Positions 15,770 to 60,413 of a DNA stretch of 64,000 nt are shown piece by piece; within the stretch, counting starts at the first letter, position 1, and each line of letters begins with the position of its first letter. The notes beneath the pieces were generated by a model. That model saw only the letters and a program-made list of their open reading frames with translations, did not search any database and was not told the origin of the DNA. The DNA lies in IMG/VR virus record IMGVR_UViG_3300020183_000012, positions 82,720-146,719 of that record. One strand, 5' to 3'. The DNA comes from a virus. Position numbers and translations under genes: made by a program.

Positions 15770-15821
15770 GGGATACCTTAGTGGGAGGTGGTATAGGTAT
15801 AATATTATGAACTGGTTGAAA
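15770..15821 (+). promoter_or_regulatory. GGGATACC repeat B, promoter-like, with first codons
   Basis: GGGATACCTTAGTGGGAGG, then GGTATAGGTATAATATTATG. TATAAT makes a good -10 box, and ATACC/GGTAT can form a hairpin. The whole 52 bases, including the first five codons (MNWLK), recur at 16861-16912. Confidence 0.6.
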
Positions 15822-16847
15822 TTTGCAAGGGACGAGCGAGATAATTTTTCGGGAAAGAAACCCAGGGTGCTTTCGGGAAAGAAACCCAGGGTGCTTATGG
15901 TGTCTCTTCCGGACATGTGGGGCATTACGGACGAAGATCTGAAGCCTTTGCGTGAGATTGCCCAGGTGGATTGGGTTCAGACGAAGCACATTACGGAGCG
16001 TGAGCTTGGTAAGCGTTGCGAGGGCTACGACTATCTGATGTTGAACATGGATCCGATGCCTTTTCCGGACCCGAACAAGTTGGACAAGCTTACGGAGGTA
16101 TTTTATAAATTTCCGGGTGTTCGGGGTTTGAAGGGGATTAATGTTGACATGACTGACGCGGACTTCTTTAGTCCTGGTATTGCGAAGCGGCTTGGTATTG
16201 TGCTTCAGGATTCTCCTGACACTACGACAGAAAGTGTTGCTGAATCAGCACTTACGGAGATACTTTTGCATGCCAGGAACCGTCATCTTGCGTATGTTGA
16301 CGTGGTGAAGGATCGTGACGTGGAGTGCAGGAAGTCTCTTGACCTGAAGGGCAAGGTTGCAGGGGTGATAGGTAAGGGACACATAGGTTCACGCGTGGGT
16401 TCATTCCTTGAGGCTTTGGGGATGCGTGTTATGTACAACGATGTGGATCCGAAGCGTGGCGGCGGGGATTCTCTGGAGGACATATTCAGGGAGGCTTGCG
16501 TGGTGAGCATCCACGTACCGTGCCACCAGCCTCATACGAACAAGAGCAATGAGGGTCTTATAGGGGAGAAGCTTTTGGGTATGTGTAAGGACCTGATACT
16601 GGTGAATCTTGCAACGGACATTATTGTTGACATTGGGGCGTTGAAGGATGCTCTGGACGGGGGCAGGATTCGCGGTTACTCTGTGGAGAGTGGCAGGCAT
16701 GAGACCGAAAGTCTGCGTCGTTACGAGAACGTCCACATATCTCCGTGTTCATACGATTCAGATGAGTCGGTTGCGAACGTGAAGAGGGTGTGGATCCGCA
16801 ACATGATCTCTGCGGTACGGGGTTCTCCCGAGAACGTTTGGATTTAA
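15807..16847 (+). CDS. D-2-hydroxyacid dehydrogenase-like protein, catalytic residues altered, 346 aa
   Basis: The NAD-binding core KGKVAGVIGKGHIGSRVGS (about residues 181-199) and LKDALDGGRIRGY identify the D-isomer-specific 2-hydroxyacid dehydrogenase superfamily. The usual catalytic Arg (in 'NxARGxxVD') is replaced (NLATDIIVD), and the PH-motif histidine before the C terminus is SPCS. It is therefore probably not a normal dehydrogenase and may be a binding or regulatory derivative. The N terminus carries the MNWLKFA tag, followed by a tandem duplication (SGKKPRVL twice, two 24-base copies at 15849-15896). Confidence 0.8.
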   Translation: MNWLKFARDERDNFSGKKPRVLSGKKPRVLMVSLPDMWGITDEDLKPLREIAQVDWVQTKHITERELGKRCEGYDYLMLNMDPMPFPDPNKLDKLTEVFYKFPGVRGLKGINVDMTDADFFSPGIAKRLGIVLQDSPDTTTESVAESALTEILLHARNRHLAYVDVVKDRDVECRKSLDLKGKVAGVIGKGHIGSRVGSFLEALGMRVMYNDVDPKRGGGDSLEDIFREACVVSIHVPCHQPHTNKSNEGLIGEKLLGMCKDLILVNLATDIIVDIGALKDALDGGRIRGYSVESGRHETESLRRYENVHISPCSYDSDESVANVKRVWIRNMISAVRGSPENVWI

Positions 16848-16880
16848 TTTTCGGGCGTAGGGGATACCTTAGTGGGAGGT
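16836..16880 (+). repeat. 45-base direct repeat, copy 1 (contains GGGGATACC repeat C)
   Basis: Runs from the last codons of the dehydrogenase gene (VWI, stop) through TTTTCGGGCG and GGGGATACCTTAGTGGG. It is repeated exactly at 17903-17947 after the next gene. Confidence 0.85.
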
Positions 16881-16939
16881 GGTATAGGTATAATATTATG
16901 AACTGGTTGAAAGAGGAACTTTACGAAGCGGTGGGGTAA
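16861..16939 (+). pseudogene. Duplicated promoter plus truncated MNWLK mini-ORF
   Basis: Positions 16861-16912 copy 15770-15821 exactly, including ATG and MNWLK. The copied frame (16898-16939) then reads MNWLKEELYEAVG and stops. It looks like the 5' remnant of a duplicated dehydrogenase gene, or a leader peptide for the nucleotidyltransferase-like gene starting ten bases later. Confidence 0.55.
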
Positions 16940-16948
16940 AATGTAATC

Positions 16949-17887
16949 GTGAGAGACATCAATCGCAACATGGCGGCAAGAACGGTGGGCAACTGGTGGA
17001 AGCGTGCGGGCATCGTAGACAATCCATCCAAGGAGTTGAGCGATGTATTTGATCCGGGCTCCACCCGCATGAGCGATTATGTCGTTGAGATGATCAACAG
17101 GGGTCTTGCACAGATACAGGAATATCTTGATTCCACCCATCCCGGGGTCAAGATCACGCATCATGAAGTCATTGGAGCAGCAGTAACTTACCAATACACC
17201 CCCAAGAGCGACATAGACACCACCGTTTTCATCAACATGCCTAAAACAGATCGGAGGTTTTGGGTCATCAACGATTGGATTATAGAAAATCTTGACAAAA
17301 CTATGTATTTTAAGGAGAGGCCAATCCAGTTCAAGATCGCACCAGATTCGTTAGTGGGGACCCAGAGTGCCAATGCTGATGCCATTTACGACCCCACCGA
17401 AAGGCGCTTTGTGAAGAAGCCCTCTCTGATAGGTGCCTCAGGTAGTTATCGCAAATTAGTTGAGTTAGGAAGTTCTGAGGAACGCAAAGAGTACCGTCGC
17501 CTTGAGGAGGAGTTGCGAGGGATGGCAAGGTCCTGGGCAAAGGTGGGCAGACAGGCACTTGAATCAGGTAAGCCAAGCGAGTTAGGGAAGTGGCTTTGGC
17601 CCCAAGCTCGTGAGATAGCTTCAGCAATTAAGCGGATAAGAAGTTTGAGAGGCGAGGCCTACAGCCAGCCTGCAGCTCCTGGAAGAATAAGCCAAAACTG
17701 GGGTCGGGGTAACATACTATTCAAAATGATGGAGAGGGATGGATACATTGAGCTGTTTTCACTCATCAAAAAAACCTTGGGTGATCGGCAAGTTTTACAC
17801 CCTGAAAATCTTGCAGCATCTGTAGAAATGGCTGAAAAAATAATGAATCAGCGTGTTGGTTTCGATCCAACCACCGATCCAGCATAG
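16949..17887 (+). CDS. Nucleotidyltransferase-like protein, 312 aa
   Basis: GAAVTYQYTPKSDIDTTVFI (about residues 72-91) resembles the nucleotidyltransferase-fold signature G[GS]...DxD, with SDID supplying two metal-binding acids. FKERPIQFKIAPDS could include the third strand. The rest is helical and basic. The substrate (tRNA, sugar, nucleotide or protein AMPylation) cannot be told. Start: a GTG at 16949; an ATG at 16970 would place a tag-like NWWKRAG at residues 8-14. The gene is flanked by duplicated segments of the preceding gene's ends. Confidence 0.6.
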   Translation: MRDINRNMAARTVGNWWKRAGIVDNPSKELSDVFDPGSTRMSDYVVEMINRGLAQIQEYLDSTHPGVKITHHEVIGAAVTYQYTPKSDIDTTVFINMPKTDRRFWVINDWIIENLDKTMYFKERPIQFKIAPDSLVGTQSANADAIYDPTERRFVKKPSLIGASGSYRKLVELGSSEERKEYRRLEEELRGMARSWAKVGRQALESGKPSELGKWLWPQAREIASAIKRIRSLRGEAYSQPAAPGRISQNWGRGNILFKMMERDGYIELFSLIKKTLGDRQVLHPENLAASVEMAEKIMNQRVGFDPTTDPA

Positions 17888-17902
17888 TCTTGACAGCAGG
17901 GT

Positions 17903-19388: not shown

Positions 19389-19838
19389 ATGAATTGGTAT
19401 AAGAGCGCAGGAAAATGGACAAAAGGAGACGGAGACTGCTTTAAAGCGGCATTAAATCTTCTTTTAGTGAGGAATTTTCCTAAAGACAACGGAGATTTGC
19501 TGGTTCACGCATTGGTGCACGGTCGCGGAAGTGCATACGGGCATCGATTTCCTCATGCTTGGGTTGAGACAAAAGAGGGCATTGCAATGGACCACTCCAG
19601 TGGTAAGAGTATAGATATACCAAAAGAAATATATTACGCCCTTGGAAACATAAATCCAGACGAAAAGGGAAGCTACATGTCGTACACGCTTGCAGACGTA
19701 AGAAAGAAAATTACCGAGCACAAGCACTACGGACCATGGGATCTAGATACAGAACTGCAGAGAACTCCAGAAGACTGGAATGAACCAGAGGAAGAGACGG
19801 ATGATGATGAAGACTGGGATGACGATGAGGATGAATAA
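19389..19838 (+). CDS. Tagged papain-like fold protein, 149 aa
   Basis: Starts with the recurrent tag MNWYKSAGK. GDGDCFKAALNLLL (about residues 14-27), LVHALVHGRG, and FPHAWVETKEGIAMDHSSGK give a Cys...His...Asp layout of a papain or transglutaminase-like fold, as in small phage proteins. The C-terminal tail is strongly acidic (EEETDDDEDWDDDEDE). The stop overlaps the next start by one base, so the next tagged gene is co-translated. Confidence 0.65.
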   Translation: MNWYKSAGKWTKGDGDCFKAALNLLLVRNFPKDNGDLLVHALVHGRGSAYGHRFPHAWVETKEGIAMDHSSGKSIDIPKEIYYALGNINPDEKGSYMSYTLADVRKKITEHKHYGPWDLDTELQRTPEDWNEPEEETDDDEDWDDDEDE

Positions 19839-20389
19839 TGAATTGGTATAAAAATGCATCTAATTACAGCGAAATGAAAGATTTTATGGAAGAATTTCAG
19901 TGGTACAGGGACCGTGGTGTCGCATCCGGACTCACGGACAAAGAAATAGAAAAAATATGGACAGAATCTCCAGTGGGATACACCGATCCAGTTGATCTAG
20001 ACAGAATAGGGAATACATATACTCCAGAAGTTACAGGAGAATCCGAAGAGGAAAGAATTAATAAATTTATAGAATGGGCAAAGAAAGAGAATAGAGAAGA
20101 CAGTGCGGAGAGCGAATGGGGAGAGAAAAGACTAAGAGATCCAGAAGGATATCTTCGCAATCTTTTAGTGGGTATAGGCAGAGGTGACTATCCTGCAGTA
20201 AACATCGTTGAAGCTGAGGGTCTGGGAAGCTTTATTGTTGGAGGTAGAACTCGCGCTGCGGCTGCCCGCGCACTAGACATGCCTCTGAGGACCAGAAAAA
20301 TAAAAATGCCCTGGAAGGAAAATGAGAGCACCAGAGAGGTAAAGGATTTATTTTATAAATTTGATGAACAGGAAAGTAAGGACGCTTAA
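19838..20389 (+). CDS. Tagged ParB/sulfiredoxin-like protein, 183 aa
   Basis: Begins MNWYKNASNYSEM (tag). The C-terminal half, PAVNIVEAEGLGSFIVGGRTRAAAARALDMPLRTRKI, resembles the ParB/Srx nuclease-like motif GxHRxxAAxxLg. A typical ParB DNA-binding helix-turn-helix is not seen, so a partition role is not supported. The first half is acidic and helical. Confidence 0.6.
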   Translation: MNWYKNASNYSEMKDFMEEFQWYRDRGVASGLTDKEIEKIWTESPVGYTDPVDLDRIGNTYTPEVTGESEEERINKFIEWAKKENREDSAESEWGEKRLRDPEGYLRNLLVGIGRGDYPAVNIVEAEGLGSFIVGGRTRAAAARALDMPLRTRKIKMPWKENESTREVKDLFYKFDEQESKDA

Positions 20390-21310: not shown

Positions 21311-22390
21311 ATGGCAGTACTGCGCTACTACAAACCCAACATCCACGATGTGTACCGCTACCCAACACAAGCCACACCAACAAGCGGGGGTATCGCACCC
21401 AATGGTTACAACTCAGAGTGTCAGTCATATGACCACATTGACTGGTCGGGCACCAGCGCCCTCCATCGAAACTTCTGCAACAACATTCCAAACAATAGTT
21501 TCAACAATATTTTCTTCACGATTCCATATGATCGAAACAGCGTGAACTTTTGGAATCAATGCACCTATGGCGCGGTGCTGATCTCGCCACGGCATGCGCT
21601 TATCTGCCAACACTTCCGTGGTGCTAGACCCGACCCGAATGACAACACAGGTGGTATTCGGTTCCTAGGAAAGAGCGGTGCTTTCTATGAAAACAAGGTC
21701 ACTCGCGTCTATCTCAACATCGGCCCTGATACGACTATGCTTGAGTTTGATAAGGAACTTCCCGATTCCGATGTCAAAATCTATAACAGGATCGCTGATC
21801 CGCTTTACATTCCCACAGGCACTTCGCTGTGGACGAAGGATAGCAACGGCAAAATCTACAAGACACTCTTTAAGAGCGCATACTTGGATACAACTACCAA
21901 CGATACGAGAGGGTACAACTTCAACGCATGCTTGGATGGCATCAACGATGGGGCGTTCAGGAACGGAGCACTCGCTATCTTTGCTGGCGACTCGGGTTCA
22001 CCTGTGATGGTGCGAGACGCATACGGAGACACAGTCTTTGTTGGATTGGAGTACGGTGGTCAATCGGTCAGCAAGGCTACCTTCGCAAACCTTGTTGCAG
22101 CACTCACTCCCTTTGGATATAAGGTGCAGCATGTCAAGTTGTCTGCCAAGATGGAAGACATCAATCAGGACGGTGTGGTTGATCAGGAAGACCTAAATCG
22201 AATCCTCGCCAGATGGGGTCAAACGAAACCTGTCTTTGAGGACATGGATGGAGACGGCAAGGTGGACGGGATCGACCTGTCACGGGTACTAGCGGCATGG
22301 GGGTCGTACACCATGCCAACATTCCCGCAAGCCGTGGTCAACCCAGGAACGGTCATTACGAATCCCCCAACTGGCAAGCCACGGGCATAA
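21311..22390 (+). CDS. Trypsin-like serine protease with C-terminal dockerin repeats, 359 aa
   Basis: Protease part: GAVLISPRHALICQHFRG supplies the histidine, TTMLEFDKELP the aspartate, and FAGDSGSPVMV the serine of a chymotrypsin-fold triad. The C-terminal third has two calcium-binding dockerin repeats, DINQDGVVDQEDLNRILARWG and DMDGDGKVDGIDLSRVLAAWG, a pattern common in planctomycete secreted proteins. No signal peptide is obvious at the N terminus. Base and codon use is G+C-richer than the genes to the right, suggesting acquisition from a host. It could be a virion-associated or released protease. The start follows AAGGAG. Confidence 0.82.
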   Translation: MAVLRYYKPNIHDVYRYPTQATPTSGGIAPNGYNSECQSYDHIDWSGTSALHRNFCNNIPNNSFNNIFFTIPYDRNSVNFWNQCTYGAVLISPRHALICQHFRGARPDPNDNTGGIRFLGKSGAFYENKVTRVYLNIGPDTTMLEFDKELPDSDVKIYNRIADPLYIPTGTSLWTKDSNGKIYKTLFKSAYLDTTTNDTRGYNFNACLDGINDGAFRNGALAIFAGDSGSPVMVRDAYGDTVFVGLEYGGQSVSKATFANLVAALTPFGYKVQHVKLSAKMEDINQDGVVDQEDLNRILARWGQTKPVFEDMDGDGKVDGIDLSRVLAAWGSYTMPTFPQAVVNPGTVITNPPTGKPRA

Positions 22391-24139: not shown

Positions 24140-24538
24140 ATGAAATTTAATCTAAAAAAATTTAATCTCAATAAAAATAGGCAAAAAATAAGTCATCATC
24201 TCAAGCAGGCATCAAGCTGGTCTGGAAAATTCAATTACGAATTTGATGATTTAGAAATAAAAAACCCACCATGTAAATGTAGTGGAGAGGCTGAAATTTC
24301 GTATCAAGCTAGTTATGACAGTGGAACATGGTATGATCCGCCAGAATCAGATATAAAAATAAAAGTAAATATAACAGCGGTTAAATGCATTGAGGAATCA
24401 GGAAGAGAAGAGCCCATGGATCCTTATATTATGGATAATATAAAAGAACAGCTTGAAAAAGATGAAAATATTAAGGAGATGGCCTTTAATCAAAAAGGCA
24501 TGGACGAAGACGAACCCGATTACGATATAGAATATTAA
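24140..24538 (+). CDS. Hypothetical protein with MKFNLKK N terminus, 132 aa
   Basis: The N terminus MKFNLKKFNLNKNRQKISHH and LKQASS resembles that of the 59952 minus-strand protein (MKFNLKKQAQ) and the tag family. The middle has CKC and a C-terminal cysteine, and the end is acidic (MDEDEPDYDIEY). Unknown function. The next gene starts eight bases after its stop. Confidence 0.65.
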   Translation: MKFNLKKFNLNKNRQKISHHLKQASSWSGKFNYEFDDLEIKNPPCKCSGEAEISYQASYDSGTWYDPPESDIKIKVNITAVKCIEESGREEPMDPYIMDNIKEQLEKDENIKEMAFNQKGMDEDEPDYDIEY

Positions 24539-26330: not shown

Positions 26331-26555
26331 ATGCATTGGTACAAAAAATGTTCCCAAAAAGAAGATAAAAAGACCGTTTCTGATCTTGCAAAAGATCTAA
26401 TGAAAAGGTTGTTAGCATATGGAATGACCCCTGAAGAAATAGAAAGAGCAATAAAATCTGGATACCTTGAAAGAATTATTGGTAAAAAACCACCATTATC
26501 AAATACATCTGATTCAGGATGGGATGATCCATCATTTTGGAAAGACAACAATTAA
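26331..26555 (+). CDS. Tagged hypothetical protein, 74 aa
   Basis: Starts MHWYKKCSQKED, a variant of the MNWYKxA tag. VSDLAKDLMKRLLAYGMTPEEIERAIKSGYLERIIG is a helical segment resembling a small helical bundle; the C terminus is acidic. The next tagged gene starts directly after its stop. Confidence 0.7.
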   Translation: MHWYKKCSQKEDKKTVSDLAKDLMKRLLAYGMTPEEIERAIKSGYLERIIGKKPPLSNTSDSGWDDPSFWKDNN

Positions 26556-26556: not shown

Positions 26557-27228
26557 ATGAACTGGAAAAAAAGAGCGCAATTTTCTGGACCAGCAATTGG
26601 TGACATTGATGACATTTTGGGAAACATACATCAGACTAAAATGTATGAAGAAGATGCCAAACAAGGTACAATTAGGGGACGTAGGCCTTCCGAAGATTCT
26701 GTACCAACAGTGCAAACAGAGCCTGAATATTTATTGACCCAAAAAAGAGAGAAAGATCTTGAGAATAAAGAAACAAAAATATCAAGATATTATTCTCCTC
26801 ACATTTCAGAACAAGTTAATCATTCTGTAAATAGCGCTATTGATTCGATATTAAAACTAAGCAAAGCATTTAAACTCGGCAAGGCCATTAATGAATTAAT
26901 GGAAAATAAAAATATTATAGATAAAATAACTTTGCATTCCTACAAGATGTTAAGAGCAAAGCTTGTTTCAGGTGTTCTTAGCAATATTAATAAAAAGAAT
27001 GAATGGGCAGATAGAGAAACAGCTATAATATCTAATATAAGAGTAAAAGAATTATTATCTGTTTACGAGAATGAAGAAAAAAATATACTAGGAGTTTTTA
27101 AAGAAGTAGTAGAAGAAATTTCTTTTAAGACAAAAAAAATTGCTGAATATTCAGCGATATTTGAAATGATAGTAAAAGAATTTTTAAACAGTTTGAAATA
27201 TAATAGTTTAGATTATTCTGAAAGTTAA
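26557..27228 (+). CDS. Tagged helical protein, 223 aa
   Basis: The ATG at 26557 gives MNWKKRAQFSGPAIGD (tag); an in-frame upstream extension overlaps the preceding gene and is unlikely. The rest is charged and helical (coiled-coil-like ISEQVNHSVNSAIDSILKLSKAFK, VFKEVVEEISFKTKKIAEYSAIFEM). No enzymatic motif. Candidate structural or internal virion protein because of the tag. Confidence 0.65.
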   Translation: MNWKKRAQFSGPAIGDIDDILGNIHQTKMYEEDAKQGTIRGRRPSEDSVPTVQTEPEYLLTQKREKDLENKETKISRYYSPHISEQVNHSVNSAIDSILKLSKAFKLGKAINELMENKNIIDKITLHSYKMLRAKLVSGVLSNINKKNEWADRETAIISNIRVKELLSVYENEEKNILGVFKEVVEEISFKTKKIAEYSAIFEMIVKEFLNSLKYNSLDYSES

Positions 27229-30322: not shown

Positions 30323-31918
30323 ATGAAAAATTGGTATAAACACATTAAAATATCTGAAACAAATACTGAAGAAGACAAACACATAACTCTTACTTCAAAT
30401 GAAGAAAATATTTTTAACATAATAAGATCTGCACGTAGCAAATACGCGAGTGATGTATCTCTTAGGGTTGCTGGAGGATGGGTTAGGGACAGGTTGCTAG
30501 GCAATATGTCTGATGACATAGATATAGCAGTTAGCGGAGGAAATGGCATAGTAATAGCAGAAGCAGTAAGAAAATTTGATCTTGATATGACTGGCGGAAA
30601 AAGAACAGATGATCCTTATTCTGTAAGTCTAGAAAAATCAAATAAAGGCTTAAAGGAAAAAAGTGCAGGCTTGCAGGTTGGTGGTATCAATATACTCGGT
30701 ATGAAAATTGAATTTGTTCCAATGAGAACAGAAGTGTATTCTGAAGAAAGTAGAATTCCCTTAATAAGAGCAACTGACAGCCCATCTGAAGACGCAAAAA
30801 GAAGAGATCTTACAATAAATTCTCTATACTACAATCTAGATACAAGAGAAGTAGAAGATTACACTGGGGGATTTGATGATCTTAAAAGCAAGGTACTGAA
30901 AACACCAATAAGCCCACTAGAGACATTAATAGAAGATCCGCTGAGAGCGCTTAGGGCGATAAGATTTGTATCTAAAATGCCTGGTTTTAAACTTGATGAT
31001 TCTTTGCTTTCTGCTCTATCAATGAAAGAATTACACGATGCATACAGAAAAAAAGTTTCACCAGAAAGAGCAAAAGTAGAGATAGAAAAAATAATAAAGG
31101 GAGAAAGACCGTCAGATTCTATTAGATTGCTTTTGCAAAGCGGACTTTATTTACCCGTTTTTTCAAGTGAAAGACTTGACTCATTTAAGCCAATAACCAT
31201 GGATCAAAACACCAAGCACCATAAATTAAACTTACTTAACCACACAATTTTAGTTGTTGAAAATCTTGATAGGATCATGAGAGAAAATGGATTCTCTGAT
31301 AGAGAAAGATATCTTGCAGTACTTGCTGCTCTTTTTCATGATTTTGGCAAAATGGATCCTTCAATAGAAAAACCAAGTAAAAAAGACCCATCTCAATCAA
31401 GCTATCATGGACATGAAAATGTTTCAGCAGAGATTGCCGAAGAAATACTTAAAAGACTTGGTTTTGGCGCGGACAGAAATATAGTAAAGTCAATAGTAGA
31501 GAGCCACATGATACCGCACTCTTTTATTGATTTGAGCAACAAGTCAATCGGAAATTTTATTAGAAGATTTGAAAGTTTGCCTATTGATGATGAAATAAAA
31601 GAGTCTCTTTGGAAACTTGTGTTTGTCCATTCAATTGCAGATACTATGGGCAAGGGAAAAATAGATGAAAAAGAACTTGAAGAAATAGAGCAAAAGAAAA
31701 AATCTATAAGTAAAATAGAAGAGTTCTTAAAAGAAAGAGAAAAAGTGGGCAAAAAACCTATTTTAAATGGCAATCAAATAATGAAATTGTTTCCAATGAA
31801 AGATCCTAAAAGTCGATACATAGCAGATATGCAAAAAACACTTTTAGAAGCACAGGACAATGGATCTGTAACTAACGAAGAGCAAGCAAAAGAATATTTA
31901 CTTGAATTGTTTAATTAA
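30323..31918 (+). CDS. cca: CCA-adding tRNA nucleotidyltransferase with N-terminal tag, 531 aa
   Basis: Bacterial class II CCA-adding enzyme. The N-terminal fingers and palm include LRVAGGWVRDRLLGNMSDDIDIAV (GG-x12-DxD), RRDLTINSLYYN, and IEDPLRALRAIRF. An HD-type phosphohydrolase region has LLNHTILVVENLD, LAALFHDFGKMD and VESHMIPH. The length is that of the HD-containing versions. The N terminus MKNWYKHIKISET carries the tag. None of the three tRNAs in the window encodes CCA, so this enzyme would be needed to mature them. An alternative role is repair of CCA ends cleaved by host defence. Confidence 0.9.
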   Translation: MKNWYKHIKISETNTEEDKHITLTSNEENIFNIIRSARSKYASDVSLRVAGGWVRDRLLGNMSDDIDIAVSGGNGIVIAEAVRKFDLDMTGGKRTDDPYSVSLEKSNKGLKEKSAGLQVGGINILGMKIEFVPMRTEVYSEESRIPLIRATDSPSEDAKRRDLTINSLYYNLDTREVEDYTGGFDDLKSKVLKTPISPLETLIEDPLRALRAIRFVSKMPGFKLDDSLLSALSMKELHDAYRKKVSPERAKVEIEKIIKGERPSDSIRLLLQSGLYLPVFSSERLDSFKPITMDQNTKHHKLNLLNHTILVVENLDRIMRENGFSDRERYLAVLAALFHDFGKMDPSIEKPSKKDPSQSSYHGHENVSAEIAEEILKRLGFGADRNIVKSIVESHMIPHSFIDLSNKSIGNFIRRFESLPIDDEIKESLWKLVFVHSIADTMGKGKIDEKELEEIEQKKKSISKIEEFLKEREKVGKKPILNGNQIMKLFPMKDPKSRYIADMQKTLLEAQDNGSVTNEEQAKEYLLELFN

Positions 31919-32736: not shown

Positions 32737-33255
32737 ATGAAAAATTGGTTTTTGAAGTCAGCAGAATCTGGAGATGAAAAATTAAAGTCTTTTGTTGAAA
32801 GCGTAGAGTTTAAGACAACAAAAAAGAAGCCACTTAATTATGTTTTTTATCAAATAATTAATGGAGACGTAAGTAAAATGCCAGCTTTGAGCTATGGAGT
32901 AAACGACAAAGATCAGAATCTTATAGTTACTCAATTTCCGGACGAAGGTGAGGAAGAAACACAAAATATGGCAAAGAATGGAGATATAATCGTATCCGGG
33001 CCTGCGCATGAAAAATATGTAGTAAAACAAGAAAAATTTAAAAAGAACTATTCTGGAGAGATTGGTGAAAGCGTTTCTCCTGAGCAGTCTACCAGGATGG
33101 CTGCAAAGTATACAGGACAAGAAGAAATAATGTTTACTGCTTCATGGGGAGAAAAAATGAGGCTTAAACCTGGAGACTACATAATAAAAGAAGATGAAAA
33201 CAAATACTATAGAGTTAGACGTAAAATGTTTGAGTTGACATACGAGCCAGTGTAA
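32737..33255 (+). CDS. Tagged hypothetical protein with PGDYI segment, 172 aa
   Basis: Starts MKNWFLKSAESGDEK (tag variant). The C-terminal half MFTASWGEKMRLKPGDYIIKEDENKYYRVRRKMFELTYEPV resembles a small domain in phage proteins with GDYIV-type motifs. The middle is soluble. Unknown role. Confidence 0.7.
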   Translation: MKNWFLKSAESGDEKLKSFVESVEFKTTKKKPLNYVFYQIINGDVSKMPALSYGVNDKDQNLIVTQFPDEGEEETQNMAKNGDIIVSGPAHEKYVVKQEKFKKNYSGEIGESVSPEQSTRMAAKYTGQEEIMFTASWGEKMRLKPGDYIIKEDENKYYRVRRKMFELTYEPV

Positions 33256-41533: not shown

Positions 41534-41872
41534 ATGAACTTCAGCAATAACAAAGATTGTCACTTCTCATTTCATTACTCCATTAATACTATTGGAGATC
41601 CCAATCATTTAGATGAGTCTTTTATAGATATAAAAATATCTAAAATTGATTTTTCGCATAAAAATCACGTTTCTTTTTCAAGAAAAATAAGTATTGGGCC
41701 ATTTACTATGATAGAACAGGCCTATGAAGAGGGAACTATAGAAAATTTGATAAAATTAGCAATAGACAAATTTATGAATTCTGAAGAGTCTTTAAAAATG
41801 GTAAAATGCAACTTAGTTGAAATAATAAAAAATGGATTATATAAATATATTCATGACGAGGGTCTAATATGA
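41534..41872 (+). CDS. Hypothetical protein, 112 aa
   Basis: No family recognised. Beta-rich first half (CHFSFHYSINTIGDP, ESFIDIKISKIDF, VSFSRKISIGPF), helical second half. The stop overlaps the start of the large 41869 gene by four bases (ATGA). It diverges from the helicase gene. Confidence 0.65.
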   Translation: MNFSNNKDCHFSFHYSINTIGDPNHLDESFIDIKISKIDFSHKNHVSFSRKISIGPFTMIEQAYEEGTIENLIKLAIDKFMNSEESLKMVKCNLVEIIKNGLYKYIHDEGLI

Positions 41873-44319
41873 GCCACATAACTGTAACCTTATCGAATAC
41901 AACATATGATATAAATGAACAGTTTATAGAAAATGCAAAATCATGGTTTAATAGCAATGAAAAAAACATTCCAAATGTGTTTGGGAAAGTGACTATGGGT
42001 ATATTTGTTGGAAACATGCCACAGGGATCTTCGAAAGATCATGAATGTGATTTTGTAAGATCAAAAATAGAAGGACTTAAAAAACCATTTAACACTTTAG
42101 GGTGTGAATATTATGTAGATAAAGATAAAAATCAAAAATATGTACCAAGAAATCAAAATCCTTACTTTTTTGCTCCATTTGTAATAGAAGGAGGCAATAA
42201 TTTTTCTTTTGACCAATTAGATCAGGGCTTATACGGCGCTTTGGCTTACAGCGGTAATTTTAGAAGAATTTCATCTGGAGATGTGCAAAGTCACTTGCTA
42301 TATACTGTGCAAGTTCACGAAAATGTAGAAATGATTACCCCTAAAAGACCAAATAAAAGCACCATATTTAATTTTAGTGGCATGGCAAGCAGCCTGCCTT
42401 TTATACAACAAGCTAATAGAAAGGAAAGTATAGGGATGAAAAAAATATCAATATCTGAAGATCTTTATAAATCAAGGGGAGAAGAAATTGCAGGTGGACT
42501 TGACAGAATAGACAGAAATAAAAGAACAGGAAAAGAAAAAAGTACCTTTATTCCAGGTATTGCCATGCTATTTAGCAAGACAATCAGAGATCTTCCTCAA
42601 AAGGTAATAAACCCGATACTTGAAAGGTTCAATCAGAAGATGATGGAAGCTGGCATAACAACTATTGAAGCTCTTGATATGCCATTAATAGCGTTTCTTG
42701 GTAAAAATGATATATGGAACCTGGATGGAAGGGCAATTATTCCATTAGAAATAGAAAAAAAATCAAAAAAAGGTATTCAAGAAATTGAAATTACATATTT
42801 AGATCTTTCAACTATGCAAGTTGAAAAAAATGAAAGCCAAGAATTAAAAGACAGAGTTGAAAGAATTATAATAGAGCGTCAGGAAATGAAGCAGCTCAGA
42901 ATTAATGCTTTGATAAGAGATAGAAATGCTTTTATAGAAAAAATGCAAACTTCTTCTAGGCCATCGGCGGGTGGATTCCCTGCAATTATTTTCATGATGA
43001 ATAAACTTGACTCTTTGCTTAATTCTAGAGCATCTACATTAAAAATGCAGATAGCCTCAATGACAAAAAAATCAAGTAGTTTTGAGCAAAATCCATTGTT
43101 GTTAGAAATAGAGCAACAGTCAGAAGAGGAAATGACAAAACCTTTTGGCGAATCTGCTTTTTATACACATCCAGCTGACTATTTAAAATCAATATTAAGA
43201 GAAATGCACTACAAAGGCAAACTAGAACAAATAATGAAAATGCTTGAAAGCGGAGAACTTCAAAGGAAGTATAATCCAGAGAACGATCCAAGATTAAATG
43301 CTGTTTTTGATGCTCTTATGGAGTTTGGAAGACAATTAAGAGAAAGAAAAGAAGAAAAGAACAGAAAAGAAGATGAATCAAAACAGGAAAGAAAAGAAAG
43401 ATTTGATACTGGTGCTTTAGAACTTCCAGTATTAAGAGAAATACGAAAAATAGAAGAAATGAGTGTTGCAGACATGCCAATTGAGACTTCTGGCATATCT
43501 CCAGAGCTTTACAAATCAGAGGGCTCAAAAATGGTTGCTCCCTCAAGAGCTATGGAATATATAAGAATTAATCTTAGAGAGGTAGAGACAACAAAAGATA
43601 GACTTGCAGGCATAAGAATGATACTGGTGAGATTGAATGAAGACAAAAACATTAATGCTAGATATTTTAGAACGACAAATGGACAGAGAGATATACAAAA
43701 GATAAAATCCATGTTTGCTCAACTTCATGGATTTATAACAAGATATGTAAATTCTATGTATAAGGATGGAAAATTAGATAAAGCAAAGATAGGCTCTTCG
43801 GCAGATCCCATTGCAAACCTAAATATAGCGGAATATCTTTTGGTTTTGAATACAAAAGTAGGAGAATATATTAGGCAACTAAATGAAAACTCTGAAAATA
43901 GAACTGCCTCAAACTCTTATCCCATAAAATTTGCTCAAGATGCTGCAGCCGCCCCGCCACCACCAGCTGCGCCTCCTTTAGGAGGTATGCCAGGTATGCC
44001 AGGAGCAGGAGCAGGATCAAAAGCAGGAGACTTAAGAGGTCCTGATGAGTCGAAAATAAATGAAGAGATACATGATGATGCAAGTGAAATAGAAAAATTA
44101 AGAAAACATTTTGATAGTGCATATAAATCAGGTCACTCAATAGAAGATTCAGTGATATTGGCTATACAGGGTTCTGGATCAAGAAGAGCCCCTAGCCAAA
44201 TAGATGTTGCAATGGTGCCAGATGAGGATTATCCAGGTAGGGAGGCCCCTTTTGTCAGGGGAGTTTTTGGAATCGATCTTGGTCCAGTTCAGGATCAGCA
44301 GCCGCAAGTGCCACAGTAA
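41869..44319 (+). CDS. Large protein of unknown function, possible virion protein, 816 aa
   Basis: No enzyme motif found. Charged helical middle (IIERQEMKQLRINALIRDRNAFIEKM, LREIRKIEEMSVADM). Near residue 680 it has SYPIKFAQDAAAAPPPPAAPPLGGMPGMPG: a tag-like YPIKFAQD followed by a Pro/Ala/Gly-rich linker, then an acidic helix and C-terminal segment. The motif next to a linker could mark a processing site in a virion protein. Translationally coupled to the 41534 gene. Confidence 0.65.
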   Translation: MSHITVTLSNTTYDINEQFIENAKSWFNSNEKNIPNVFGKVTMGIFVGNMPQGSSKDHECDFVRSKIEGLKKPFNTLGCEYYVDKDKNQKYVPRNQNPYFFAPFVIEGGNNFSFDQLDQGLYGALAYSGNFRRISSGDVQSHLLYTVQVHENVEMITPKRPNKSTIFNFSGMASSLPFIQQANRKESIGMKKISISEDLYKSRGEEIAGGLDRIDRNKRTGKEKSTFIPGIAMLFSKTIRDLPQKVINPILERFNQKMMEAGITTIEALDMPLIAFLGKNDIWNLDGRAIIPLEIEKKSKKGIQEIEITYLDLSTMQVEKNESQELKDRVERIIIERQEMKQLRINALIRDRNAFIEKMQTSSRPSAGGFPAIIFMMNKLDSLLNSRASTLKMQIASMTKKSSSFEQNPLLLEIEQQSEEEMTKPFGESAFYTHPADYLKSILREMHYKGKLEQIMKMLESGELQRKYNPENDPRLNAVFDALMEFGRQLRERKEEKNRKEDESKQERKERFDTGALELPVLREIRKIEEMSVADMPIETSGISPELYKSEGSKMVAPSRAMEYIRINLREVETTKDRLAGIRMILVRLNEDKNINARYFRTTNGQRDIQKIKSMFAQLHGFITRYVNSMYKDGKLDKAKIGSSADPIANLNIAEYLLVLNTKVGEYIRQLNENSENRTASNSYPIKFAQDAAAAPPPPAAPPLGGMPGMPGAGAGSKAGDLRGPDESKINEEIHDDASEIEKLRKHFDSAYKSGHSIEDSVILAIQGSGSRRAPSQIDVAMVPDEDYPGREAPFVRGVFGIDLGPVQDQQPQVPQ

Positions 44320-44323
44320 TAAA

Positions 44324-44962
44324 ATGCAAGAATATAGATTCCAATTTCAAAAAATACCCTATGGTTTTAATGAACTAGAAGGTCTTTTTTCAGAAAATGC
44401 AGTAAAACTACATCATTTAAAGCACGAATATGGATATTTTACAAAACTAAACAAACTTGTTGAAAAAAATGTTATATTTAAAAAAAGTTCACTTGAAGAA
44501 ATTGTTAGATATTTTAATCAGAATAAAAATGATGAAGAAAATGTCAGCATAAAAAATAATGCTTGTGGACTGTATAACCATCAAATATGGTGGAAAATGC
44601 TTACATCAAAAAAGAAGCATAAAAAGCCAAATTCAGATATTAAATCTATAATAGAAAAAAACTTTAACTCATTTGAAGAGTTTGAAGAAAAATTTAAGGA
44701 TTTGTCAAAAAATCTGTTTGGTTCTGGATGGGTTTGGATGGTATGTAAAAATGGAAAAATGTCTTTAGCTTCGTGTCAAAATCAAAATAATCCAATTTCT
44801 GAAGGACTGGGATATCCGTTATTGGGAATAGATGTATGGGAACATGCATTTTATGTAGATTATTTAAATAGAAAAAAAGAATATGTAAACAAATTTTTTG
44901 AATATATAAATTGGGACGAAATAACAAATAGATACTTTGAATCAGAAAAAAGTGCATTATGA
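44324..44962 (+). CDS. sod: Fe/Mn superoxide dismutase, 212 aa
   Basis: The SOD pattern is complete: KLHHLKHEYGYFTKLN (ligand H30, Y38), GLYNHQIWW (ligand H86), LFGSGWVWMV, and LLGIDVWEHAFYVDYLNRKKEYVNKFFEYINWD (ligands D170 and H174). Fe versus Mn cannot be decided. Converts superoxide to hydrogen peroxide and oxygen; a phage copy may protect the host during infection. The ATG at 44324 is used since the longer frame overlaps the upstream gene. The stop overlaps the next tagged gene by four bases. Confidence 0.9.
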   Translation: MQEYRFQFQKIPYGFNELEGLFSENAVKLHHLKHEYGYFTKLNKLVEKNVIFKKSSLEEIVRYFNQNKNDEENVSIKNNACGLYNHQIWWKMLTSKKKHKKPNSDIKSIIEKNFNSFEEFEEKFKDLSKNLFGSGWVWMVCKNGKMSLASCQNQNNPISEGLGYPLLGIDVWEHAFYVDYLNRKKEYVNKFFEYINWDEITNRYFESEKSAL

Positions 44963-45228
44963 ACTGGTATAAGAATCAACTAAATAAAATTGCAGATGAA
45001 TGTTTTTCGATAAGCATACCATCAAGTGCAAGAATAAAAAAAGATATAGATTCCATATTGGAAACTGAAATCACTATTAAAATTGCGTCAAAAATAAGAT
45101 CTATAATAAAAACAGCATCGAATGCTAAAAAGAATAAAGAAAAACACTTTTCTAAAATAGATGATATCGTTGACCCATCAATAAAAGATCAGGTCAAGGG
45201 CATAGCAAGGTCTTATCTTGGAATTTAA
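44959..45228 (+). CDS. Tagged helical protein coupled to SOD, 89 aa
   Basis: Starts MNWYKNQLNKIADE (tag). The remainder is helical and lysine-rich (SARIKKDIDSILETEITIKIASKIRSIIKTASNAKKNKEKH). It overlaps the SOD stop (ATGA). Its end meets the convergent 45225 gene with four bases of overlap. Confidence 0.65.
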   Translation: MNWYKNQLNKIADECFSISIPSSARIKKDIDSILETEITIKIASKIRSIIKTASNAKKNKEKHFSKIDDIVDPSIKDQVKGIARSYLGI

Positions 45229-53355: not shown

Positions 53356-53820
53356 ATGCATATGATAAAGTATAAAAGAAGTCACGAAGATGCAAGATTG
53401 CCATCCAAGGCAAATGAAAATGATGCAGGTTTTGATTTATGGTCTGTAGACGATGGGAATATATCTTACGACAAAGATGGTTTTATAAAATATATTGAAT
53501 ATGGGACAGGCATACACATAGAGCCCATGCCATATACTTTTACTATGATATATCCAAGAAGTAGCATAAGAAATAAGGATATATTGTTGGCCAACAGCGT
53601 TGGAATAATTGATAATGGATATAGAGGTGAGTTAAAAATTGTTTTTAGGCCAACAAAACAGGTAAAGGATAGAAACGAAATTTCTTTGTATTGTAAGGGA
53701 GAGAGGATAGCCCAAATAATCCCGTTTAGATACTCTAACGAATTTTATTTTGTAGAGACCAGAGAGCTTAATGAGACAAGCAGAGGCGAGGGAGGATTTG
53801 GGTCAACTGGATCGACCTGA
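53356..53820 (+). CDS. dut: dUTPase, 154 aa
   Basis: All five trimeric dUTPase motifs are present: NDAGFDLWS (1), YPRSSIRNK (2), VGIIDNGYRGE (3), GERIAQII (4) and RGEGGFGSTG (5). It hydrolyses dUTP to dUMP, feeding ThyX and keeping uracil out of phage DNA. Co-transcribed with the RNR gene; its stop overlaps the next start by one base. Confidence 0.93.
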   Translation: MHMIKYKRSHEDARLPSKANENDAGFDLWSVDDGNISYDKDGFIKYIEYGTGIHIEPMPYTFTMIYPRSSIRNKDILLANSVGIIDNGYRGELKIVFRPTKQVKDRNEISLYCKGERIAQIIPFRYSNEFYFVETRELNETSRGEGGFGSTGST

Positions 53821-55637
53821 TGCCAATAACGCCAGATAAAACTCTAGTAATATATAATTCCGGAGAACCAGCAAGTCTTGATTTCATGACTCAGTACATA
53901 AAGATCAGGAGAGTACCTCCTGCCAATCTTTATGGCATTGACACTCCAACGTCAGACAGATACCAAACATATGAAGATTTTAAACAAAATCTTCTAGATG
54001 TAATAAATAATCTTATAGATATAAATAATTATACATGTGTGCTTCTTGGGTATAGGGTACCATCTGGATTTATACACAACCAAAGAGTATATTCTTGCTC
54101 TTCTGTAATTTCTGGAAGAAAAATACCATTTGATGGAACTCCAAAAAGAAATACATCATATACCACAAGCAATTTTTTAAAGTTTGACTTAAATCTCAGT
54201 AAAATACCTGTATGTTTTTCTTTAGATGTAAAGAATGTAATACAGATGAAAATATTAATTAATAAAATCAAATCAAACAAAGACGGAGTTATCATAAATG
54301 GCAGTTTTTATTTAGATAAATATCACACGCTTTCTTCATATCCAAATGATGAAATTTATTTTGATATAGTTGATGCATTTGACAATACAGCTAAAAACAA
54401 ATTTAATATTGATGTAAGAAAAACAGCAAAAAACAGAAACTCAAATATTGAACCATCTTTTTCTTTGCTTGTAAATGATTCAATATTTTGGGGATGGGGA
54501 GATTTGATTGCAAATGAAAGTTATTTTTCTCCAACTTCCACAAATAGAGTAGTGTTCATGTCATATGATAACAGGTCAATGACATCATTAAGAATAGAAT
54601 CTTCAGACAATGCGTGTTTGGCTGCAATAAACAGAGGATATGCATGTGTCGCAGGGAATATAGGAGATTCTGCATTTTTAGAAAGTGAATTGAAAATAAA
54701 TGATCCTTACGATCCATATTCTACAGGTGCTTTAGAAAATCACATGGTACCGAATCCATATTCTTTTATGGATGCCTTATATTCAGGTAGAACTGTAGGA
54801 GAGGCATTTCTATATAGCAAACCATACTTGCATGATTCTTTTGTGATGATAGGGGATCCATTACTAAAAGCATATATAGAAAATTCGATTGATCAAGAAA
54901 AAGCAAGTGCAAAAGAATTATGGTTAGATACTGAATCAAATCTTTCAAAATCTGCAGCTTATATTATATCTGAAGGAAAATATTCTTCTCTTCTTCATGA
55001 AAGAAATTTGAGATCAAATGATCTTGATATGAAAATTGATTTAAGTAAAAGTTCTTATAATTTAAATAGTAAATATTTTATTGAAAATAGAAAAAATACT
55101 TTTTCAGGAACATTTGACGCGTTCCAGGGATTTAGCCAGCAAATAAATATGCAGATTAATGCTATAGATGACATAACATTTAGAGATTTTTTGAAAGCAA
55201 ATAACCTTTATGTTTCAAGATCTATAGTAAAAATGATGACCAACGGAGAGGCAATGATTATTGGAAATGAAATACAAAATCTAAAAGTTGACAAGAATAT
55301 ATACCTTGATATATTTGTTCAAGAAATGGATGGAGACGCGGGATATATACATTTTGAAATTGATGGATCTTTAGATGAAGATTTTGATCAAATAGTATTC
55401 AATTTTAAATCATATGAAGACACTTCTTTTTGGAAATATGAAAAAACATCTGGGTCTATGGAAAATTTTGAGCAAAGAGGAATATTTTCTGGTCTTGTAG
55501 GAAGAAGAGTTTCAGTATCAAGACCATCAACTTATCGATACAGTCTATCCGGAGAGGAATTGTATATAAGATATAGACAAATATTAAATTCAAATTACAT
55601 GTCAGAATATTTTTATGAGGTTATTATAATACCATGA
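53820..55637 (+). CDS. TIGR03790-like protein, 605 aa
   Basis: N-terminal TLVIYNSGEPASLDFMTQYIKIRRVPPANL, central FMSYDNRSMTSLRIESSDNACLAAINRGYACVAGNIGDSAFL, then TVGEAFLYSKPYLHDSFVMIGDPLLKAYI match the TIGR03790 family, known from planctomycetes, acidobacteria and others, without an established function. The C-terminal 200 residues are an extra region ending in beta-rich sequence. Overlaps the dUTPase stop (TGATG) and the next start (ATGA). Confidence 0.7.
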   Translation: MPITPDKTLVIYNSGEPASLDFMTQYIKIRRVPPANLYGIDTPTSDRYQTYEDFKQNLLDVINNLIDINNYTCVLLGYRVPSGFIHNQRVYSCSSVISGRKIPFDGTPKRNTSYTTSNFLKFDLNLSKIPVCFSLDVKNVIQMKILINKIKSNKDGVIINGSFYLDKYHTLSSYPNDEIYFDIVDAFDNTAKNKFNIDVRKTAKNRNSNIEPSFSLLVNDSIFWGWGDLIANESYFSPTSTNRVVFMSYDNRSMTSLRIESSDNACLAAINRGYACVAGNIGDSAFLESELKINDPYDPYSTGALENHMVPNPYSFMDALYSGRTVGEAFLYSKPYLHDSFVMIGDPLLKAYIENSIDQEKASAKELWLDTESNLSKSAAYIISEGKYSSLLHERNLRSNDLDMKIDLSKSSYNLNSKYFIENRKNTFSGTFDAFQGFSQQINMQINAIDDITFRDFLKANNLYVSRSIVKMMTNGEAMIIGNEIQNLKVDKNIYLDIFVQEMDGDAGYIHFEIDGSLDEDFDQIVFNFKSYEDTSFWKYEKTSGSMENFEQRGIFSGLVGRRVSVSRPSTYRYSLSGEELYIRYRQILNSNYMSEYFYEVIIIP

Positions 55638-57879: not shown

Positions 57880-58770
57880 ATGATTAAAAAATCTCAATCA
57901 AACCAAGACTTAATTTCAAAAGTACAGACATTAATAGAAAAATCTGCACTGCCACAAAATGAAAAAATAGAAGTAATAAGATTAATTGGACAATATATAT
58001 CTGGACAAATAAACCAGGGTGTATTTATGTCAAATAGATCGATAGCCACATTGAGAGCAGATCCATCAATGAATGTATTAATGACAGAAATACATAATGA
58101 AAGGCAAAAAAATCTTCAAGAGCAAAGAGATAATCAGCAAAGAGAATCAACAACACAGTCTCAGGCGTACTCTTTAGAAAGAGTAAATCAACAAAGAAGA
58201 GAAAATGGCTTACCTGAATTTAAAACATACGAAGAGGCTATGTCTCATAGAGAAAATGAAAATAAAAAACACAAAGATGCAGTAAAAAATCTTTATAGAT
58301 TTATAGCAAATGGAGACGGAGACGCAATATTGGAATCTGGAGCAACATATGTTCAGGTGAAAGAGGCAATAGACAACATCATTAATAGATCTCCAAGTCC
58401 AAAGGGATTTGATGATTCAGATCATCATTTAGAAGGCGTCTCGGAATATTTAAGAAGCATGTATGGAATACTTGATTCGAATGAAAAAGTACATTCTTTT
58501 TTTATTAATGCAATAATGGCTTATCATTCAAGAAAGGCAAACATAAAAAGCAGAAACGAACAAGAGCGTCAATCAAAAATTGATGAAGCCCATGCAAAAA
58601 GAAGAGAAAACATGGCAAGACAAACAGAGCTATCTTCTGATAGAACAAGTTTAAATGAATCTAGAAATAGAGAAAGAGATTCCAGGATGTCAAGAGTTGA
58701 CCAAGCTGCAGCAAGAAATAGAGGAAGAACAAATTCTAATTTCTCTAGAAATAATCAATTCTTTAACTAA
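57880..58770 (+). CDS. Charged helical protein, 296 aa
   Basis: Long charged coiled-coil-like regions (NERQKNLQEQRDNQQRESTTQSQAYSLERVNQQRREN, SRNEQERQSKIDEAHAKRRENMARQTEL) and a basic Arg/Ser-rich C terminus (NRGRTNSNFSRNNQFFN). No enzymatic motif; possible scaffold or virion protein. The terminator at 58781 follows. Confidence 0.65.
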   Translation: MIKKSQSNQDLISKVQTLIEKSALPQNEKIEVIRLIGQYISGQINQGVFMSNRSIATLRADPSMNVLMTEIHNERQKNLQEQRDNQQRESTTQSQAYSLERVNQQRRENGLPEFKTYEEAMSHRENENKKHKDAVKNLYRFIANGDGDAILESGATYVQVKEAIDNIINRSPSPKGFDDSDHHLEGVSEYLRSMYGILDSNEKVHSFFINAIMAYHSRKANIKSRNEQERQSKIDEAHAKRRENMARQTELSSDRTSLNESRNRERDSRMSRVDQAAARNRGRTNSNFSRNNQFFN

Positions 58771-58780
58771 TAGTATTAAA

Positions 58781-58823: not shown

Positions 58824-58836
58824 TTTTACTATTTTA

Positions 58837-58968
58837 TCAGAAGCCTCTTTGTTTTTGCCTTTCAGCTAGTTGTGCTGGAGTAAGAGAGGCATCTGTACCT
58901 GGAGCTGGTGTTGGCCTTATTCTAGAATAAGGATTTCCCCTTGCTGGGTAAACTGTTTCTGCTCCCTA
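58837..58968 (-). other. In-frame extension past a TAG stop, 43 codons
   Basis: Downstream of the TAG ending the 58966-59952 gene, the same frame stays open: GAETVYPARGNPYSRIRPTP, then APGTDASLTPAQLAERQKQRGF, ending TGA at 58837. This is 14 bases before the terminator stem. The composition continues the preceding protein's style. Either stop-codon readthrough, a mutation or a sequencing error. Confidence 0.55.
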
Positions 58969-59952
58969 TGGCGCATCAGGACCTGGACCAGGTCCTTCTT
59001 CTGCTGTGGCAGGAGCGGCTGCAGGAGCGGCTGCAGGAGCGGCTGCTGCTGGGGCAGGAGAGGCTGAAACGGATTTAGGTGCTTGTAGTTTTCCCATAAG
59101 CGCCTGTCCTTCTTGTGTCATAAGATCCATTTCAAACCATCCGTACCCATCCTTAATTACGGGGGTGTAAATGTAAAAACCAACTTTGCCCTCATTCTCA
59201 TCAGAACCACCATCATTTGCAAGATTTGTAAGGGCAGTTGGTCCATAAACAATATATGCTGGAGCTAAGGCTGGTGTTGGACCATATGTCTCCTGCTCTC
59301 CCTCATCGTTTTCAAAGACCTCTTGCTTAAGTCTAAAATTTGCAGAAGAAACCCTATATGATTCTTTCATTTTTGATTCAGCAGAAGTTGCTACTACTGT
59401 TCTTCCGCTATAAGCGTATGGTAATATAAACTGCATTTCTTCTTCATTTGCTGGTTCAGTTACTGCAGCTCCACCTCTTCTTGGCGACATCTGTGGAACA
59501 TTGGAACCAATAAGAAGAGCTACCATATAATCTGCTTTTGCTGTAACCTCAAATATGCCTCCATTTGGTATGGATTTGACTACTCCTACCTGGCTAGACT
59601 CTTGTTGCACTTGCTGTGCTGCTGGGGCTGTACCACCTTGTGCTGCTGGGGAAGACGCAGCTCCACCACCAGTAGCTCCGCCACCAGAAGCTCCGCCACC
59701 AGAAGCTCCGCCACCAGCAGCTCCGCCACCAGCAGCTCCGCCACCAGCAGCTCCGCCACCAGCAGCTCCACCACCAGTAGCTCCACCACCAGTAGATGCA
59801 CTTTGTGCTGCAGAATTTGCAGCAGCAGCAGGTGCCTGTGGGGAAGAAGGAGGAGTTTGAGCTGTTTTAAAATCAGAAAAACCTCCTATAAGGTTTTTAA
59901 TTGCATCAGATTCATTTTGTAACTGAGCTTGTTTTTTAAGATTAAATTTCAT
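58966..59952 (-). CDS. Gly/Ala-rich repeat protein, possible virion protein, 328 aa
   Basis: N terminus MKFNLKKQAQLQNESDAIKN, then FSDFKTAQTPP (both tag-like). Residues 50-100 are tandem GGGA(A/S/T) repeats encoded by a 12-base DNA repeat (59670-59790). A folded, beta-rich domain follows (GIFEVTAKADYMVALLIGSNVP, GKVGFYIYTPVIKDGYGWFEMDLM). The tail is Pro/Ala-rich and ends GPGPGPDAP at a TAG, beyond which the frame continues open. Confidence 0.75.
   Translation of the reverse strand: MKFNLKKQAQLQNESDAIKNLIGGFSDFKTAQTPPSSPQAPAAAANSAAQSASTGGGATGGGAAGGGAAGGGAAGGGAAGGGASGGGASGGGATGGGAASSPAAQGGTAPAAQQVQQESSQVGVVKSIPNGGIFEVTAKADYMVALLIGSNVPQMSPRRGGAAVTEPANEEEMQFILPYAYSGRTVVATSAESKMKESYRVSSANFRLKQEVFENDEGEQETYGPTPALAPAYIVYGPTALTNLANDGGSDENEGKVGFYIYTPVIKDGYGWFEMDLMTQEGQALMGKLQAPKSVSASPAPAAAAPAAAPAAAPATAEEGPGPGPDAP
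59670..59795 (-). repeat. Tandem 12-base repeats coding for GGGA units
   Basis: About ten near-identical copies of a GGTGGCGGAGCT-type unit on the coding strand, giving (GGGA)n with T and S variants. Prone to expansion and contraction. Confidence 0.85.
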
Positions 59953-59972
59953 ATTAATTCCCTATTTATTAA

Positions 59973-60413
59973 TTAAAAAGATGGAGTCCTTTGTGATCTT
60001 CCACTAGATTGACGAGCTGCACCCGGTTTAGACGGTCCTTTTTTGCCTCCGCTTGGATCAAAAGTTCCCATGTCAAATTGTCCAGGAGCTTTTTCTCTTT
60101 CCATTGCTCTTAAATTATTTAAATTAATCTCTCTTACTTCTTCAAGATCTTCAATCAGGGCTTGCATGTTTGGCGCATAATCAGCGTCAAGATACTGAAA
60201 GGCTTGAATTGAATTCTTTAAATACTGAACCCATTGTCCGTTTGTGCTAGACCCATCTCCGTATACAAGAGTAAATATCTGTTTTGCTCTGTCAAGATTC
60301 AAACTTCTAAGTGCAGTATCATTAGTAGAAAACCATCCAGCATCTTCGTACTGTGGTGCTTCTTGAGCTGTTTTAACTTTCCATTGACCGTTTTCAATCT
60401 CATATTTATCCAT
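59973..60413 (-). CDS. Tagged hypothetical protein, 146 aa
   Basis: Near the N terminus WKVKTAQEAPQYEDAGWF carries the tag-like K-T-A-Q. The middle is helical (FQYLDADYAPNMQALIEDLEEVREINLNNLRAMERE). The C terminus is basic and low complexity (GGKKGPSKPGAARQSSGRSQRTPSF). Fits a small virion protein; lies between two likely structural genes. Confidence 0.65.
   Translation of the reverse strand: MDKYEIENGQWKVKTAQEAPQYEDAGWFSTNDTALRSLNLDRAKQIFTLVYGDGSSTNGQWVQYLKNSIQAFQYLDADYAPNMQALIEDLEEVREINLNNLRAMEREKAPGQFDMGTFDPSGGKKGPSKPGAARQSSGRSQRTPSF

Follow-up and report, generated by a model that had tools for sequence, protein, structure and literature searches.

Why should many otherwise unrelated proteins of one virus carry nearly the same short peptide? 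This question is raised by a stretch of 64,000 nucleotides (hereafter the window), which comprises bases 82,720-146,719 of the 146,719-bp IMG/VR record IMGVR_UViG_3300020183_000012, and in which a tag of the type MNWYKxA or KTAQ recurs at the ends of proteins and between their domains. The tag is probably a capsid-targeting peptide for virion cargo, with a probable cut by the head protease at its core and subsequent injection of the cargo. Its users would be large tailed phages of one lineage, whose capsid is of the type of Bacillus phage G: a protein tagged at an end or at a fusion joint would bind a head component and enter the prohead core, the head-maturation protease would probably cut at the shared core, hydrophobic-K-x-A-[S/Q], and the cargo would be injected along with the DNA, acting early on the next host. 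We infer the binding partner, the packaging, the cleavage and the injection from sequence.

All 15 occurrences named in a preliminary description of this DNA are in frame within the open reading frames (ORFs) given for them, and the tag is indeed common to unrelated proteins. Several of the coordinates given there are ORF starts or ends rather than motif sites; thus, two minus-strand genes have their 3' ends at 35721 and 38480, whereas NWFKSSQ and NWYKISR lie at 36375-36395 and 38483-38503, the latter at the C-terminus of the SNF2 helicase, as had been proposed. Most of the copies described as N-terminal are so, but NWWKRAG lies at residue 15, NWKKRAQ is found behind an internal ATG at 26557, and the C-terminal and inter-domain copies go further than an N-terminal tag. 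Four copies had been overlooked (FNLHRFAS at 33284, FNLKKQAQ at 59923, IKKSQ at 57883 and LKQASS at 24200). The sites are as follows.

15810-15830, plus strand: NWLKFAR, N-terminus of D-2-hydroxyacid dehydrogenase-like ORF 15807-16847, which has a tagged homologue (L009/L046) of 76% identity.
16991-17011, plus strand: NWWKRAG, residue 15 of ORF 16949-17887, which has no Pfam match and, as judged by eye, a nucleotidyltransferase-like ..SDIDTTVF.. stretch.
19392-19412, plus strand: NWYKSAG, N-terminus of ORF 19389-19838.
19841-19861, plus strand: NWYKNAS, N-terminus of ORF 19838-20389 (ParB/sulfiredoxin-like, weak fold match).
24200-24217, plus strand: LKQASS within ORF 24140-24538, which begins MKFNLKKFN; it aligns with MNWYKSARG of the L046 homologue.
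26334-26354, plus strand: HWYKKCS, N-terminus of ORF 26331-26555.
26560-26580, plus strand: NWKKRAQ after the ATG at 26557, in an ORF listed from 26467.
30329-30355, plus strand: NWYKHIKIS ahead of a poly(A) polymerase/CCA-like plus HD protein, ORF 30323-31918.
32743-32763, plus strand: NWFLKSA ahead of a PGDYG-domain protein, ORF 32737-33255, whose L019 homologue begins MNWYKIAQ.
33284-33307, plus strand: second tag type FNLHRFAS, N-terminus of ORF 33272-33904; compare the terminase-adjacent FNLKK.A genes.
36375-36395, minus strand: NWFKSSQ, N-terminus of ORF 35721-36401.
37086-37106, plus strand: internal core FIKTAQE, residue 83 of 471 in ORF 36840-38255.
38483-38503, minus strand: C-terminal tag NWYKISR of the SNF2-type helicase, ORF 38480-41461.
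43921-43941, plus strand: internal core PIKFAQD, followed by a Pro/Ala linker, residue 685 of 816 in ORF 41869-44319.
44962-44982, plus strand: NWYKNQL, N-terminus of ORF 44959-45228.
57883-57897, plus strand: IKKSQ, candidate tag variant, N-terminus of ORF 57880-58770.
59857-59874, minus strand: core DFKTAQ, followed by a Pro/Ala/Gly-rich linker, in ORF 58966-59952.
59923-59946, minus strand: second tag type FNLKKQAQ, N-terminus of the same ORF.
60360-60377, minus strand: core VKTAQE (behind QWK), near the N-terminus of ORF 59973-60413.
Beyond the window, record positions (at least eight): 37252 MNWYKTAS, 41825 MNWFKISQ, 44430 MFFNWYKTAQ, 47474 VHNWLKRA, 49129 TNWIKRA, 52323 MKSNWYKKSG, 53786 MKINWYKTSQ and 55306 MTWYKSAQ.

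It had been stated that a targeting role would be refuted if the motif were no more frequent across the full proteome than by chance; the tag is in fact far more frequent than in shuffled sequences. In the whole record, NW[YF]K occurs within residues 2-40 of 10 of the 210 called ORFs, as compared with 0.064 in residue-shuffled proteins, and a looser motif occurs in 19 (2.1 when shuffled); the corresponding counts for residues 2-40 of the 94 called ORFs of the window are five (0.02) and eight (0.86). No tag match is found among 201 proteins of control viral loci. When MNW[YF]KxAQ is searched as DNA, 29 stretches are found in IMG/VR and only 11 exact matches in 257 Gb of prokaryote genomes. Without the start codon the pattern yields 70 stretches and the reversed pattern 15, so that some of the lone DNA matches away from the tag clusters are fortuitous; at many of the 70 loci no called ORF has the tag in frame. 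Among 26 records examined, a single one may hold as many as 19 occurrences of the NW[YF]K codons (0-3 for reversed-pattern controls), and more than 25 virus records besides that of the window have the tag on many proteins apiece.

The shape of the tag is seen from 170 distinct [NTS]W[YF][KRQ] sites, a set skewed to records that the motif itself retrieved: 134 fall within the first 40 residues of the protein, 15 within its last 30, and the other 21 are internal. The profile of 125 N-terminal sites is N-W-Y-K-x-[A/S/I]-[Q/K/S], with no conservation beyond. Other forms are the longer NWYKxIKxAL/AQ and the standalone cores IKTAQ, VKTAQ and FNLKKAQ. At L047:5506-12809 there is a tandem array of at least 12 diverged paralogues of about 125-260 residues, each starting with MNWYKxIKxALPV and having ..GH.. 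and ..LD..F.NP.I.. segments in common. No publication naming the motif was found in the open-access literature searched, and the ORFs of L034 (tagged or tail-like) were not found in cultured phages.

Synonymous codons vary wherever possible (AAT and AAC for N, TAT and TAC for Y, AAA and AAG for K, all four GCN for A). Because of this variation, and because there are N-terminal, C-terminal and fusion-joint copies, the tag is evidently a protein-level signal; a DNA-level element or a translation leader is rejected on account of the codon variation together with the C-terminal and internal copies. It is highly improbable that the tag is no signal, having been spread as a leader by recombination with the 5' ends of cassette genes or serving as a translation-enhancing 5' sequence. 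Tags do cluster in tandem gene cassettes and paralogue arrays (L047), but the residues are conserved despite the synonymous variation, copies at C-termini and inside proteins exist, the cargo families are unrelated and their DNA context is divergent, all of which disfavours this explanation.

The tag is also an addition to proteins that exist without it. Behind it, recognised domains start at residue 18 (glucose-6-phosphate dehydrogenase), 11 (ART-PolyVal), 21-25 (AAA_33), 23 (cREC), 28-36 (2H-SAK) and 19 (DnaJ). Homologues in other viruses are untagged (cREC in L181 and L182, the ADP-ribosyltransferase (ART) in L185), and a ParB-like paralogue without a tag is encoded by the same virus as the tagged copy. 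AlphaFold models the protein of window ORF 19838 as folded from about residue 11 on, with a mean predicted local distance difference test (pLDDT) score of 51 for residues 1-10; the fold matches that would make this protein ParB-like all have E > 0.04 and are only suggestive. For the PGDYG protein the model was too poor to be used. Tags are found at joints as well. In the 1017-residue ORF at 29882 of the record, SWYKTIKLAQ joins the two parts, whereas in record G003 (L034) the two parts are encoded apart, homologues of the first ending with NWYKHTK or NWYKKVK and the second forming an ORF of its own. The poly(A)-polymerase domain of L025, a homologue of window ORF 30323, has IKTAQ just upstream and SNWYKKIKADAS after it, and in L051 a 713-residue ORF is tagged at its N-terminus and again internally, ahead of a module that is also found as a separate tagged ORF. 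Such multi-domain fusions are few (L025, L051 and the 1017-residue ORF); most tagged proteins look single-domain.

The tagged proteins are effector-like. They include glucose-6-phosphate dehydrogenase, ART-PolyVal, AAA_33 kinases, a cyclic-phosphate receiver domain, 2H phosphoesterases, a J-domain, D-2-hydroxyacid dehydrogenase, poly(A)-polymerase/CCA plus HD, PGDYG, ParB-like and LysM/lysozyme-like proteins, and the SNF2 helicase with its C-terminal tag. In the record of the window, ThyX, ribonucleotide reductase, dUTPase, a sigma factor, an HNH nuclease, superoxide dismutase, a metallophosphatase, a GMP reductase/IMPDH-like protein and a PP-loop protein are untagged. Such a split would be predicted for a tag that marks the proteins which the particle delivers. 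For ARTs and polyvalent domains, packaging is known or proposed in passages of an earlier study (PMC5512222), and effector domains of the polyvalent-protein catalogue are present among the tagged cargo: the ART-PolyVal match of the L011 protein is above the cut-off, and the MPTase-PolyVal match of record ORF 8966 is only below it. It is quite improbable that the tag addresses proteins within the cell, to a phage-made compartment, a replication site or a membrane, rather than to the virion. The NWYKxIKxALP tags resemble short amphipathic peptides and numerous cargos are soluble enzymes, as would suit such a role; however, no tag is found on the replication, nucleotide-metabolism and sigma proteins that should be present at such places, and head-module genes and the LysM/lysozyme-like protein do bear the tag.

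Of 27 tag-bearing records, 16 have a terminase (phrog_2), which is adjoined by a conserved module, of which the first gene past the terminase begins with FNLKKxA; a portal protein and a head-maturation protease (phrog_18299) are recognised via PHROGs. The capsid protein has 55% identity to gp27 of phage G and the portal 32% identity to gp14. By capsid protein, portal and protease, the tag-bearing records may be assigned to a phage G-type (Donellivirus-like) head lineage, the capsid protein being found in 14 of the 21 records tested. The head protease is the opening part of a protein of about 1,850-2,290 residues. Two hydrophobic-[KR]-x-A copies occur in the protease in each of the 15 records read, one at the extreme N-terminus (MAMYKRAT, MAFYKTAT, MLIKVAL, MILKKAS; in a few the first residue is non-hydrophobic) and the other immediately ahead of the catalytic domain (IKTAS, VKFAS, VKIAS, MRTAA); gp19 of phage G has LVKTAA at this latter position. 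Scaffold-like and other head genes have VKTA[SAQ], IKTAQ and FNLKKAQ at boundaries. The core hydrophobic-K-x-A-[S/Q] is counted 38 times in head modules, as compared with 11.1 (standard deviation 3.3) when shuffled and 11 for the reversed motif; none is found in the counted terminases (8) and capsid proteins (4), and the enrichment is absent in control loci, in Tunturi_5 and in the first 40 kb of phage G.

The protease-opened proteins at L156:11239-16914, L157:584-7393 and L158:10201-15807 (1,868-2,269 residues) have several more K-x-A-S/T sites, and such a long protein is possibly a polyprotein of head-core parts. Cultured phage G has few MKRLI[KRS]K starts; gp13, gp17, gp38, gp126 and gp251 begin with MKRLI..K, and the last of these, at L164:38671-39219, which is predicted to be ART-like, starts with MKRLIRKAS (MRLFKMKRLIRKASRILYHGTSS) and offers a candidate phage G version of the tag. 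Insertions occur in the head protease (intein splicing/Hint, LAGLIDADG) and in the portal gene of tag-bearing phages (L155:1-3653, L151:12037-15402), those of the portal gene having LAGLIDADG and DUF559/MTES-type endonuclease domains.

Several points weigh against a cleaved capsid-targeting peptide. Over phage G as a whole the core is little enriched, and not significantly; the core motif was defined post hoc, on data already seen. Neither terminase, nor phage G-type capsid protein, nor head protease is detected in the incomplete record of the window itself, and the likely placement of its virus in this lineage rests on shared cargo, on the tags and on homologues (record ORFs 136539 and 138353) of two genes upstream of the terminase. 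Some C-terminal tags stop within a few residues of the protein end, and residue 7 is variable (Q in 67, K in 22 and S in 8 of 125 sites). These last two properties fit docking better than cleavage and are the main doubt on the latter. The leading rival, though rather unlikely, is a docking-only cargo peptide that, like those of encapsulins or microcompartments, would bind a site on the scaffold, the core or the inner shell and remain uncut, the K-x-A of the protease being the protease's own tag. The tags in the last few residues, the inter-domain copies and the variation of residue 7 agree with this, as does the tag-like peptide with which the protease, too, begins. However, the second core lies exactly between the protease leader and the catalytic domain, and cores lie at the boundaries of scaffold-like proteins, in both cases as maturation cuts predict.

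Peptides with which a targeting and probably cleaved tag can be compared are known from several systems. The cargo peptides of encapsulins and microcompartments are terminal or inter-domain and load enzymes into an icosahedral shell, that of encapsulins having the HK97 fold. Here, in contrast, the shell would be an infectious virion, and the sequences are dissimilar by eye. In T4, the internal proteins IPI-III and Alt bear a capsid-targeting sequence (CTS) that gp21 cuts; this is likewise a short peptide on otherwise unrelated head-internal proteins, with effector or anti-defence cargo and, as in the tag, a (here putative) protease site closing the peptide (passages in PMC9026906, PMC12373910). 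In T4 IPIII, ten N-terminal residues suffice for packaging and the residues for targeting differ from those for processing, and Alt is cleaved at both ends, which parallels the N- and C-terminal tags (passages in PMC9026906). The resemblance to T4 capsid targeting, already pointed out, is as an analogy well supported by independent sequence evidence, namely the core in the head module and protease, the effector-like cargo and the untagged homologues. The tag does not appear to be a CTS by descent, because sequence, putative cut site (hydrophobic-K-x-A versus L/I-x-E) and capsid type (that of phage G) differ: the position weight matrix of 125 tags has A/S, then Q/K/S, and no E at the place of the gp21 site, and gp23-type capsid protein and S77 protease gave no match in 26 records, in a search whose built-in controls were silent everywhere too. 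The far wider cargo and the inter-domain copies are further differences.

The prohead propeptides of phiKZ and SPN3US likewise belong to giant-phage heads with many internal, ejected proteins, some of them cleaved, but a peptide spread across many cargos is not described in the relevant passages (PMC9026906, PMC10052503), and their site, S/A-x-E, does not occur in the tag core, hydrophobic-K-x-A-[S/Q]. With polyvalent proteins the overlap is in cargo, namely ART-PolyVal, a weak MPTase-PolyVal, ParB-like and SNF2 proteins, all of proposed-injected kinds; a common N-terminal peptide is not described in the corresponding passages (PMC5512222), whereas here the tag is the shared part and the cargo is mostly single-domain.

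The record is probably a linear, incomplete phage genome, with a GC content of 0.28-0.39 in both arms and 0.42-0.55 from about 50 to 100 kb. A second IMG/VR contig (61,722 bp) matches bases 1-61,684 with more than 99.9% identity in every sampled piece, including the start of the GC rise, so that no misassembly is seen, and a chimera is rejected, up to about 50 kb. No tag is found in the 72 ORFs of the high-GC stretch at 57-98 kb. Within the window, bases 1-15700 are of high GC (0.47-0.59), with short genes, three tRNA genes, no tags and a composition unlike either arm of the record. A phage-encoded Fe/Mn superoxide dismutase gene (44204-44962) is immediately upstream of tagged ORF 44959. The 605-residue ORF at 53820-55637 has no Pfam match; its homologue is a gene upstream of the terminase in tag-bearing phages. 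Dockerin-like C-terminal repeats (..DINQDGVVDQEDLNRILARWG..) in the window at 21311-22390 and at L046:5589-7010 recall proteins of Planctomycetota, a possible hint to the host.

There is about an even chance that a single interchangeable peptide serves as a general virion address, read by a phage G-like head core and its protease, with at least 12 unrelated enzymes, fused and array-expanded families among them, loaded per particle and carried to the next host; in that case the injected effectors of these genomes could be predicted from the tag alone. If the tag does target the capsid, any tagged gene would be a likely injected effector, giving a list of candidates for host takeover and anti-defence, many of them of unknown function. 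Capsid targeting would extend beyond a few internal proteins of T4 and become a broad system in a capsid lineage unrelated to that phage, with a portable peptide by which proteins could be loaded into very large phage heads and a testable K-x-A cleavage rule for the maturation proteases of phage G-type heads.

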